64,000 bases of DNA, taken from Pseudanabaena yagii GIHE-NHR1. GTDB lineage: Bacteria > Cyanobacteriota > Cyanobacteriia > Pseudanabaenales > Pseudanabaenaceae. Each line of letters begins with the position of its first letter. Positions within the stretch are counted from its first letter, which is position 1. The notes beneath the pieces are model-generated. The model was given only the letters and a program-made list of their open reading frames with translations, made no database searches and was not told the DNA's origin. The translations under genes and the position numbers were made by a program. The stretch lies in assembly GCF_012863495.1 (NCBI RefSeq), contig NZ_JAAVJL010000001.1, forward strand, positions 3,157,501 through 3,221,500, in the 5' to 3' direction. Below, in pieces: positions 54,976 to 59,010 of the stretch.

Positions 54976-56298
54976 GTGCAGCGAAAAACATTACGCGACG
55001 GTGCGCTTGGCTTATTTATCATCGGTGGAGTAGTTGCTCTTGGCGGTGCATTGTTATGGTTGCGCGGGCTGCAACTAAATAGTTCTAAGTTTACATTTAC
55101 GATTAAATTGCCTGATGCTAGTGGGTTAAATACTGGCTCCGTAGTGAGGTTTCGTGGTGTCGAAATCGGAAGGGTCGCATCCTTAACTGCTCAAGCTGAA
55201 GGCGTTGATGTACTGGTAAGCGTTGAAAACTCCAAATTAATTATCCCGAAACAGTCCGTAGCCGAGACTAACCAGAGTGGTTTTTTGGGAAATACCAATA
55301 TTGATATTTTTCCACCTAAGGATAAGGTGACACTTGAGCCAAACCTTAATCCCTTAGCCAAGGACTGCAACAATGATCTGATCATTTGCCAAGGCGGACA
55401 AATTGAAGGCTCAAGGGGCGTGAGCTTTACGGCGCTTCTCAAGGATATGAGCGCCACCCTCCGTAAAATCAATGACCAAAGTCTGATCGACAATCTCAAT
55501 GACACTTTAATTTCGGCAAAAGCGACCGCAAAAAGTATCCAAAAATTGACTGATTCGGCTAACCGCGTAGTCGGTACGTTTGAAAACCAGATCGTGAAGT
55601 TTGGCGATACGGCTGATGCGATTAGTGGTGCGGCGAATAAGGTGGGCAGTGTTGCCAATAGTGCTCAAGATTTAATCGAGGTCAATCGCGAGAAATTAGC
55701 GCAAACTCTAGATGGGATTGCGGCAGCTTCGCGAGAGGCACGATCGCTCTTGGCTAGTGCGAAACCCCTCCTCAATGACGGTAAACTGATCGCTAATTTG
55801 CAAAAACTCGCAGACAATGCGGCGGAAACATCGGCAAACCTACGGAAGGTCACAGGAGAATTGAGCGATCCTGCAACCATTGCCTCCCTGCGAGAAACCC
55901 TAGATTCAGCGCGGGCAACCTTTGCTAATGCCAAGAAGATTACGGCGGATTTGGATGAACTAACGGGAGATCCCAAGCTGCGGAGCAATATTCGTAATTT
56001 GATTAATGGTTTAGGAGGTTTATTATCTACGGCTCCTAATCTTGATAACTTACCGACAGCCAGCAATTCGCGTCCTAGTGAAACTGCGACCGAGAAATTA
56101 CCAACTAATGTCGAAGTTGCGCGCAGTAAAGTGATTAAGCCTGCTACCGATGATCGCGAAAGGCGCGAAAAGTCTTTGGACAAAGAGAAGGTCAAAATTA
56201 ATAGCCCTACCCCCAGTACAACCATTAGTAAAACAACTAAATCTGGAGCTAGCTCCTTAACAGAGGGTTCTAATTTTGATAGCTCAAGCGATCAATGA
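54976..56298 (+). CDS. MCE/MlaD-family lipid-binding protein
   Basis: A 440-residue membrane-anchored protein. An N-terminal helix (about 12-30, GLFIIGGVVALGGALLWL) precedes one MCE domain (about 38-120) containing FTIKLPDASGLNTGSVVRFRGVEIG in outline. A long helical region (about 150-360) follows and a low-complexity Ser/Thr/Lys tail. MCE proteins bind lipids and bridge envelopes with an Mla-type ABC transporter. It starts with GTG at 54976, preceded by GGAGG overlapping the ATPase gene's end, and overlaps the NfeD gene by 4 bp. Confidence 0.9.
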   Translation: MQRKTLRDGALGLFIIGGVVALGGALLWLRGLQLNSSKFTFTIKLPDASGLNTGSVVRFRGVEIGRVASLTAQAEGVDVLVSVENSKLIIPKQSVAETNQSGFLGNTNIDIFPPKDKVTLEPNLNPLAKDCNNDLIICQGGQIEGSRGVSFTALLKDMSATLRKINDQSLIDNLNDTLISAKATAKSIQKLTDSANRVVGTFENQIVKFGDTADAISGAANKVGSVANSAQDLIEVNREKLAQTLDGIAAASREARSLLASAKPLLNDGKLIANLQKLADNAAETSANLRKVTGELSDPATIASLRETLDSARATFANAKKITADLDELTGDPKLRSNIRNLINGLGGLLSTAPNLDNLPTASNSRPSETATEKLPTNVEVARSKVIKPATDDRERREKSLDKEKVKINSPTPSTTISKTTKSGASSLTEGSNFDSSSDQ

Positions 56299-56726
56299 AC
56301 TTACCACCTAGTCAAGTTTGGCTAATTATTGGGATGGCACTATGCGCGATCGAGTTGCTAGTGCCTTTGCCAACTTTTTTGATTGCGGGCGCGATGGGGA
56401 TTGCCGCTTTATGTGTCGCCGCGATCGCCTTAATTATTTCCTTGCCTGCCCTGCAAGTATTAGCTTGGATGCTGATCTCAGGGCTTTTGGTCATGGTTTC
56501 ACGACGATTTATTCCCAGAGATTCCCATCAACTGCAAGAAGCGCGTGAGGGGATCACCATTACGGCAATTCCCGCAGGGGTAACGGGACGAGTGCGCCAT
56601 GAGGGAGTTTCATGGAAAGCTAGATGTGATGATCCCCGAATTGAGATCGCTGCTCAACAAAAAGTAATTGTTTTACGCAGAGAAGGCACAACCCTGATTG
56701 TTGTACCTGAAAATTGGCTGCAATAG
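56295..56726 (+). CDS. NfeD-family membrane protein
   Basis: A 143-residue protein with two or three hydrophobic helices (about 8-70) followed by a small OB-fold domain (about 85-143) with GVTGRVRHEGVSWKARCDD and QKVIVLRREGTTLIVVPE, the NfeD C-terminal pattern. NfeD proteins usually partner with SPFH/stomatin-type proteins and act in membrane organisation; here the neighbour is the MCE lipid system. It starts at ATGA overlapping the MCE stop codon, so coupling is clear. Confidence 0.88.
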   Translation: MNLPPSQVWLIIGMALCAIELLVPLPTFLIAGAMGIAALCVAAIALIISLPALQVLAWMLISGLLVMVSRRFIPRDSHQLQEAREGITITAIPAGVTGRVRHEGVSWKARCDDPRIEIAAQQKVIVLRREGTTLIVVPENWLQ

Positions 56727-56784
56727 TACAGGAATAGCCAGAAAATGTCGTTTAAAACTATGTCGTTATATTCATGTAAAAGCC

Positions 56785-56903
56785 CTACAAATATTAAAAA
56801 AAAATAATTTTAAATAATTTTAAAATTACTAAATCAAAAGTTTTCCACAGAGTTTTCCACAGATATCGAGGCTTTTTCCACAGATATCGGGGAGTTTTCC
56901 ACA
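56785..56903 (+). other. Origin-like region: AT-rich tract and DnaA-box cluster
   Basis: A highly AT-rich stretch (about 56791-56840, runs of A and TTTTAAATAATTTT) is followed by four exact TTTTCCACA boxes on the same strand at 56841, 56853, 56874 and 56895. The last three are 21 bp apart. TTTTCCACA is the DnaA-box consensus of cyanobacteria. The rest of the 463-bp gene-free gap (to 57189) contains a GTGATGTC/GACATCAC inverted pair. No dnaA or dnaN gene is in the window, so the origin role is inferred. Confidence 0.6.
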
Positions 56904-57189
56904 GGTGATTTTATCGATGGTGATGTCTTTGCCTTACTGGTTAAGGATTCATTAATAGGCGGATGACATCACTTGGGAAAACTTTTTGAAACCTGAGCCA
57001 TATGAAGAAAGGTAAAGAAAAATGGTCTAAAATGCTCATTCTTTTAAATTTGATTCGTTTATTTATCACTAGTATTGCTCTTTTCGTTACGTTGACAAGA
57101 TCTGCTAGTTGAACGCACAATTAAGTCCCGACCTCTGAAAAATGGTTGCGGCATTCCTATCAAACTTGTTTAAAAGTTGAGGTTTCAGC

Positions 57190-57417
57190 ATGAATACAAC
57201 TGTCAGCATCCTTGCCGAAATTCCTGAAGAACTGCACGAAACCCTCAAAAATTATCTAGAATCCCACCCCGATTGGGATCAGGATCGCGTATTTGCTGCT
57301 GCTTTGTCTTTGTTCCTATTGCAAAATGGTGGTAGCGATCGCCTTGGTGGTGCATCCCATAGCTATCGCAGCACCGCTAAAGTCTATTTGAATGCCTTAT
57401 TTCATCACTCAGTTTAG
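57190..57417 (+). CDS. DUF2811 small protein
   Basis: A 75-residue soluble protein, VSILAEIPEELHETLKNYLE at the start and a conserved ending TAKVYLNALFHHSV. It matches the cyanobacterial DUF2811 family as I recall it; function unknown. It appears to be monocistronic, preceded by the origin-like gap and followed by a hairpin 5 bp after its stop codon. Confidence 0.85.
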   Translation: MNTTVSILAEIPEELHETLKNYLESHPDWDQDRVFAAALSLFLLQNGGSDRLGGASHSYRSTAKVYLNALFHHSV

Positions 57418-57570: not shown

Positions 57571-59010
57571 ATGACTTCTGCTCAACCCACCGAAGTTAAT
57601 CAACCCTTAGATGTTCTTGTCGTTGGTGCAGGAATTTCTGGTTTAGCGATCGCCCATGAACTAGCGATCGCCAAAAATTACCGTGTATTAGTGGCAGAAG
57701 CTCAAGATCGCGTGGGTGGTGCAATTACCAGTAATCGTAATGATGAAGGCTATCTCTGGGAAGAGGGACCCAATAGCTTTCAACCAGCACCAGAGTTATT
57801 ACGTCTAGCCGTACAGGTGGGTCTCAAGGATGAACTGGTGCTTGCCGACGGTAAATTACCAAGATTTGTATTTCTCAATGGCAAGTTAAATGCTTTGCCG
57901 ATGAGTCCTCCAACAGCGATCGCCTCCAAAATCTTGACTTGGGGCGGCAAAATCCGTCTAGCCCTAGGTGCATTAGGTTTTGCGCGTCCTGCAATGAGTG
58001 GTGAAGAATCCGTTGATCAATTCTTTTCGCGCCTACTAGGTAAGCAAGCTGTTGAGCGATTAGTTGCGCCTTTTATCTCTGGAGTCTATGCGGGTGATCC
58101 TAAACGCCTCAGTGCTAGAGCCGCATTTTCTAAAATTTTCCGTCTAGAAAATGGCTATGGAGGTTTGCTCTCAGGGGCAATCCTGACGGCAAAAGAACGC
58201 AAAGCCCAAAAGCTGAACGATCCTAATATTCCCAAGGTGAAGTCGGGCGAACTGGGTTCTTTCCGCCAAGGTATTAAAATGCTGCCCGAAGCGATCGCTA
58301 CCAAACTTAGAGATCAAGGTACGGCTGTCAAACAACAATGGACTTTGCGATCGCTAGAAAAGCAAGGCGAAATCTACATTTCTCAGTTTGATACGCCTAC
58401 GGGTGCAGAAACAATCACTTCGCGATCGGTGGTTCTGACCACTCCTGCCTATGTGAGCGCTAAGTTATTGCAAGACTACTTACCTGCGGCGAGCCAAGCC
58501 CTGAGCGAGATTTTCTATCCAACCGTTGCCTGTGTCGTACTTGCCTATCCCAAAAGCGAATTTGCCTATGACATGAAGGGATTCGGCAACTTGATTCCGC
58601 GCACGCAAGGCGTAAGAACCCTCGGTACAATCTGGTCATCTAGTCTATTTGCAGGACGTGCTCCTGAAGGTTGGCAATTACTACTTAACTTTATTGGCGG
58701 CACTCTCGATCCTCAATTGGCAAAACTCTCAGAAGCTGAGATCGTTCAAACGGTGCATCAAGATCTCAAGAAAACGATTCTGCGTCCTGATACGAAAGCT
58801 GAACCTAAAGCGATCGCGGTGCATGTGTGGGACAAGGCAATTCCTCAGTATGAAATTGGACATTTAGATCGTCTGGCGACGATAGAAGCCGAATTGCAAA
58901 AATCACAAGGTTTGTATGTCAGTGCAAATTTTATTGGTGGTGTTTCGCTTGGTGATTGCATTAAGCGCGGTCTTCAAGAAGCAGATAAAATCGCTGCATT
59001 TTTAAAGTAA
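57571..59010 (+). CDS. hemG: Protoporphyrinogen IX oxidase, HemY/PPOX type
   Basis: An FAD enzyme that oxidises protoporphyrinogen IX using oxygen, at the branch to heme and chlorophyll. The 479 residues show the dinucleotide motif VVGAGISGLAIAHELA, GGAITSNRNDEGYLWEEGPNSF, the FISGVYAGDPKRLSARAAF motif, and the C-terminal FAD segment LYVSANFIGGVSLGDCIKRG. This is the plant-like oxygen-dependent enzyme (also called HemY); many cyanobacteria use the unrelated HemJ instead. It stands alone, convergent with proB. Confidence 0.93.
   Translation: MTSAQPTEVNQPLDVLVVGAGISGLAIAHELAIAKNYRVLVAEAQDRVGGAITSNRNDEGYLWEEGPNSFQPAPELLRLAVQVGLKDELVLADGKLPRFVFLNGKLNALPMSPPTAIASKILTWGGKIRLALGALGFARPAMSGEESVDQFFSRLLGKQAVERLVAPFISGVYAGDPKRLSARAAFSKIFRLENGYGGLLSGAILTAKERKAQKLNDPNIPKVKSGELGSFRQGIKMLPEAIATKLRDQGTAVKQQWTLRSLEKQGEIYISQFDTPTGAETITSRSVVLTTPAYVSAKLLQDYLPAASQALSEIFYPTVACVVLAYPKSEFAYDMKGFGNLIPRTQGVRTLGTIWSSSLFAGRAPEGWQLLLNFIGGTLDPQLAKLSEAEIVQTVHQDLKKTILRPDTKAEPKAIAVHVWDKAIPQYEIGHLDRLATIEAELQKSQGLYVSANFIGGVSLGDCIKRGLQEADKIAAFLK

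Follow-up and report, generated by a model that had tools for sequence, protein, structure and literature searches.

The window, a stretch of 64,000 nucleotides (C1:3157501-3221500) of the 5.57-Mb genome G000 (9 contigs), carries a compact cluster of DnaA boxes at a site where dnaN is absent. This raises the question of what such a cluster serves: the opening of a replication origin, the titration of DnaA or the control of the gene that follows it. The features of the locus, numbered within the window, are listed below.

56787..56839, no strand: AT-rich tract of 53 bp, 94% A+T, with a conservation limited to the genus
56841..56849, + strand: DnaA box 1, TTTTCCACA, exact match
56853..56861, + strand: DnaA box 2, TTTTCCACA, exact match, 12 bp after box 1
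56874..56882, + strand: DnaA box 3, TTTTCCACA, exact match, 21 bp after box 2, position kept in relatives
56895..56903, + strand: DnaA box 4, TTTTCCACA, exact match, 21 bp after box 3; nearest to the gene, most conserved, and the anchor box in relatives
57092..57121, + strand: predicted sigma-70-type promoter, TTGACA-N18-CACAAT, core conserved across the class
57190..57417, + strand: DUF2811 gene (PF10929), 75 aa, E 1.3e-27, the gene accompanied by the array

An NfeD-like gene (56295-56726) and the DUF2811 gene leave between them a gap of 463 bp, in which the array is located. The sequence-only reading had described four exact boxes on one strand, preceded by an AT-rich tract, in a gap free of genes, and this description was accurate: positions and spacings (12, 21 and 21 bp) were recovered, and no credible gene was found at 56727-57189. 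TTTTCCACA is the established cyanobacterial DnaA box (PMC4674748). It occurs in exact form 76 times in G000, versus 37 times for a reversed control pattern; the 21-bp-phased double box (at most 2 mismatches) was found 8 times versus 0 for the control, which places the cluster far beyond chance. As the repeats of the array resemble a 21-bp direct repeat with spacers GATATCG(A/G)GG, the boxes of the window are partly non-independent within G000, and it is the class-wide conservation reported below that settles the matter.

The replication origin beside dnaN

Cyanobacterial oriC has been described beside dnaN (PMC4674748). In G000, dnaN, whose absence from the site the earlier reading had remarked, is 1.14 Mb away from the array, and an oriC-like cluster with boxes on both strands, denser than the array, lies directly upstream of it (C1:2078114-2078636). 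A sampling of GC skew over 42 stretches, each of about 20 kb and together covering about 23% of C1, placed the cumulative minimum at about 2.12 Mb, beside dnaN, and not at the array (3.21 Mb); the skew is weak, so this minimum is supporting evidence only. The dnaA gene is found at C1:3310709-3312115, 96 kb from the array. The sequence-only reading had proposed a relocated oriC as one possibility and had itself named a denser TTTTCCACA cluster beside dnaN, together with a GC-skew switch elsewhere, as the observation that would speak against it; such a cluster is what the genome contains, with the sampled skew minimum next to it.

The same reading had seen in the AT-rich tract the layout of an unwinding element. 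This was not borne out in the relatives: in 107 of them, the 52 bp before the first box had a median A+T content of 56%, equal to that of the surrounding loci. That the array would be a relocated or secondary origin with an oriC-like unwinding site is therefore extremely improbable, even though its phased boxes adjoin a tract of 94% A+T and several origins are used by some cyanobacteria (PMC7198777), since a denser cluster lies beside dnaN at the sampled cumulative skew minimum, the AT-rich tract is missing in relatives and the array keeps a fixed place within a promoter region. The array and the cyanobacterial oriC share the TTTTCCACA box and the 21-bp phasing. In contrast to oriC, the exact boxes of the array are on one strand only, with a promoter downstream and with neither a conserved AT-rich element nor dnaN.

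Two inverted pairs of identical geometry, TTTTCCACA-N14-TGTGGAAAA, were also observed in G000 (C1:1577166-1577197 and C1:2075310-2075341), one of them about 3 kb before the oriC cluster.

Boxes and promoter upstream of DUF2811

A search for phased pairs in relatives, the close named ones being Pseudanabaena, led repeatedly to loci of two kinds: the oriC next to dnaN, and the region upstream of DUF2811. Loci of the second kind reached families far from the genus of the window. From 110 DUF2811 loci, 106 had at least 500 bp of upstream sequence. All 106 contained at least one DnaA box on the strand of the gene, 230-650 bp upstream; it was an exact TTTTCCACA in 103 and part of an exact 21-bp pair in 58. 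Box density per locus was 8.0/kb in the bin from -500 to -250, versus about 0.06/kb elsewhere within 5 kb, an enrichment of about 100-fold. The spacing of neighbouring boxes was 21 bp in 80 of about 120 cases and mostly 12, 22 or 11 bp in the remainder. Furthermore, the genes upstream of DUF2811 fell into more than 40 unrelated clusters and those downstream into several; since the neighbours change while the array stays, the array travels with DUF2811.

Alignment of the loci revealed a series of weaker boxes ahead of the exact ones and, in most DUF2811 loci, a conserved predicted promoter core, TTGACA...ACAAT. Between the last box and TTGACA (-35), the spacing was 182-184 bp in 57 of 103 loci, distant families included, and exactly 183 bp in 38 of them; in the window it is 197 bp. 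The fixed strand and the near-fixed distance to the promoter argue for a control of DUF2811 transcription by DnaA. Against such regulation, the array stands ahead of the -35 element by about 180 bp, a long way for an activator or repressor of the classical sigma-70 type.

The E. coli elements datA, DARS1 and DARS2 are non-coding clusters of DnaA boxes outside oriC, and the DUF2811 array resembles them in both respects. It could thus be a titration or nucleotide-exchange site of this kind that sets the amount of free or ATP-bound DnaA and lies upstream of DUF2811 by chance, an explanation that would suit a non-coding array of several boxes and the inverted TG(T/G)GGA box-like element that 62 of 108 loci show 44-45 bp beyond the last box. 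We consider it unlikely, as it explains less than a regulatory locus does. The array is always oriented with DUF2811 at a near-fixed distance from its promoter, which leaves it no independence from that promoter, and it remains with DUF2811 while the other neighbours change. In addition, its distance to oriC differs between genomes, amounting to 31% of the chromosome in G000 and to about 10% of the contig in G027, whereas the E. coli sites are position-dependent; the array is linked with the promoter of one gene and not with a place on the chromosome. A literature search for datA or DARS in cyanobacteria found no paper.

Several lineages displayed variants of this arrangement, the first two of which weigh against a regulation by DnaA. 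Nostocales-like loci often kept a single exact box. In the genus f27-g34 (G127, G131, G143 and G069; loci L209, L206, L210 and L192), dnaA is present but the boxes have shifted to TTTTCCCCA, none being an exact TTTTCCACA, while the promoter core of DUF2811 persists; this is perhaps a lineage with a reduced use of DnaA. The small-genome cyanobacteria of family f2 have 2-5 DUF2811 paralogues, for instance L203, L215, L221, L222 and L223 in G374 or L181, L213 and L220 in G163. Nearly every one of these copies is preceded, at about 250-300 bp, by a DnaA-box-like site of its own, which is often followed at 44-45 bp by an inverted box. A conserved motif, TTTGYAATTCTTAT, precedes the array in several families (e.g. 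L185, L190, L183, L192 and L206); among genomes without dnaA, it is still found in G106 and, as TTCGCAATTCTTAG, in G417.

Between array and promoter, the best score for an HLR1-like site, the target of RpaB, was above that of shuffled sequences (mode of 14 vs 12, out of 16). The best matches gather some 90-110 bp past the last box, on the minus strand, and are weak in the genus of the window. The site would precede the presumed start by about 110-130 bp, a distance that the published windows do not include. The presence there of an RpaB (HLR1)-like site is a possibility that we regard as a lead only. If true, it would tie the DUF2811 locus to the photosynthetic redox state; in S. elongatus, the binding of DnaA to oriC depends on photosynthetic electron flow (PMC6478999). 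An Rfam search for a known RNA in the DUF2811 leader gave one sub-threshold match only.

Joint loss of dnaA and DUF2811

DUF2811 and DnaA were scored in the 186 Cyanobacteriia genomes of a 386-genome sample of the phylum. Genomes with no DnaA match, or only matches with E above 1e-6, were taken as lacking dnaA (n=19). DUF2811 was present in all 167 genomes possessing dnaA. In the 19 others, it was absent from 13, a pseudogene with internal stops in two (G350 and G196) and intact in four (G106, G417, G230 and G314). Fisher's exact test for this association gave p of about 8e-16, a value uncorrected for phylogeny and obtained on genomes that are not independent. By family and genus labels, dnaA was lost about 9 separate times, and DUF2811 was also lost or broken in at least 6 of these cases; the losses extend across at least 6 families (f27, f28, f29, f30, f31 and f38).

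Another sample of the class, with 390 genomes, some overlap with the first and dnaA scored in only part of it, contained 15 genomes with no DUF2811 detected: the same 13 and two draft genomes possessing dnaA, G015 (460 contigs) and G430 (380 contigs). These two are exceptions unless they reflect assembly gaps, which is possible.

The boxes were also affected. In G106 and G417, no box (at most 1 mismatch) was found within 900 bp of the intact DUF2811 gene, versus 2-3 in relatives of the family that have dnaA. G230 and G314 keep one exact box, versus three box-like copies, two of them exact, in G192, which belongs to the same genus and has dnaA. In these four genomes the TTGACA core is still readable. 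Overall, boxes were erased or reduced in 6 of the 6 loci examined in genomes without dnaA, and phased arrays are nearly absent from such genomes as a whole. The only exact phased pair, in G158 (C2:18150-18200), belongs to a perfect 21-bp tandem repeat with identical spacers and is probably unrelated to DnaA.

The decay of the array without dnaA would be expected of a titration site too, but such a site leaves the joint loss of a protein-coding gene unexplained. That the coding gene disappears along with dnaA speaks for a DUF2811 protein acting where DnaA acts. At the same time, four genomes without dnaA keep DUF2811 intact, two of them with no box, so that DUF2811 can persist without DnaA.

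The same genomes bear on the idea that a factor other than DnaA, DUF2811 itself for instance, binds the boxes, whose likeness to DnaA boxes would then be accidental. The binding of DnaA to the array is deduced here from its motif, and DUF2811 has a short strand-helix-helix-like sequence, two points which would leave room for such a factor. However, motif and 21-bp phasing match those of the oriC of the same genome, and the boxes are gone or reduced where dnaA is missing and DUF2811 is kept. We hold this explanation to be very unlikely.

A putative DnaA-responsive gene

Among the possibilities that the sequence-only reading had left side by side, a second DnaA-binding regulatory locus is the one to which the conservation of boxes at DUF2811 throughout the class, the predicted promoter and the joint loss with dnaA point. 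Boxes conserved upstream of the orthologues (106/106 loci) and dependent on the presence of dnaA are what a DnaA-regulated gene would display. On these comparisons of sequences, we think it likely, with some reserve, that the array is a DnaA-bound cis-regulatory element controlling DUF2811 and that DUF2811 acts in a DnaA-dependent pathway. DnaA would bind the 21-bp-phased boxes, probably as an oligomer on one face of the helix, and the bound protein would act on the conserved TTGACA promoter, by activation or by repression. The expression of DUF2811 would thereby be coupled to the level or the activity of DnaA, and its product would then work in a DnaA-dependent process, most likely the control of replication initiation or of chromosome copy number.

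A bolder proposal is that DUF2811 is an unrecognised core part of the cyanobacterial DnaA system, controlled by DnaA through the class-wide array and feeding back on DnaA or on initiation. We put it forward tentatively, as somewhat less probable than its contrary. If true, DUF2811 would be a reason for keeping dnaA where DnaA is no longer needed for replication.

SirA, YabA, Hda and SeqA are small regulators of DnaA, and DUF2811 could likewise be a lineage-specific small protein in DnaA control, although no sequence relationship between it and any of them was found. The gene product matches the PF10929 profile with 96.3 bits (curated cut-off, 26.6), and no relatives beyond the DUF2811 family were found in PDB, Pfam or NCBIfam. 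The AlphaFold model (pLDDT 57.8; helices 13-25, 31-47 and 55-72) is of too low a quality to be searched for similar folds. The sequence, with a strand followed by two helices, hints at a ribbon-helix-helix fold, for which no profile or PDB match was obtained.

Clusters of DnaA boxes which regulate genes are already known. In Bacillus subtilis, according to the account of Ishikawa 2007 in PMC7198777, clusters outside oriC do so; like the DUF2811 array, they are intergenic, away from oriC and linked to the transcription of a gene. The DUF2811 locus differs from them in its target gene and phylum, and in being kept class-wide with a fixed orientation and phasing and lost with dnaA. No earlier mention of DUF2811 and no description of its upstream locus were found in a literature search confined to freely accessible journal papers.

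Cyanobacteria differ in their need for DnaA, which is essential in Synechococcus elongatus PCC 7942 and dispensable in Nostoc PCC 7120 and Synechocystis PCC 6803. They are the group whose free-living members lose dnaA, and DnaA is dispensable in several species that possess it; its role in the DnaA-independent ones has been called unclear (PMC7198777). A conserved array and a gene that tends to be lost with dnaA offer a concrete, testable target for this role, and the region upstream of DUF2811 a second DnaA locus to measure beside oriC. They also provide a lead to the function of a protein family found in nearly every cyanobacterium.

Finally, a protoporphyrinogen oxidase gene often follows DUF2811 on the same strand (57571-59010 in the window; in relatives, e.g. 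L123:5531-6124 and L082:5380-6822). By cluster, this oxidase is of two unrelated types, HemY in 26 loci and HemJ in 21, whose representatives were confirmed by TIGR00562 and TIGR00701, respectively. The presence beside DUF2811 of two non-homologous enzymes for one step suggests a functional tie or a conserved place of insertion.
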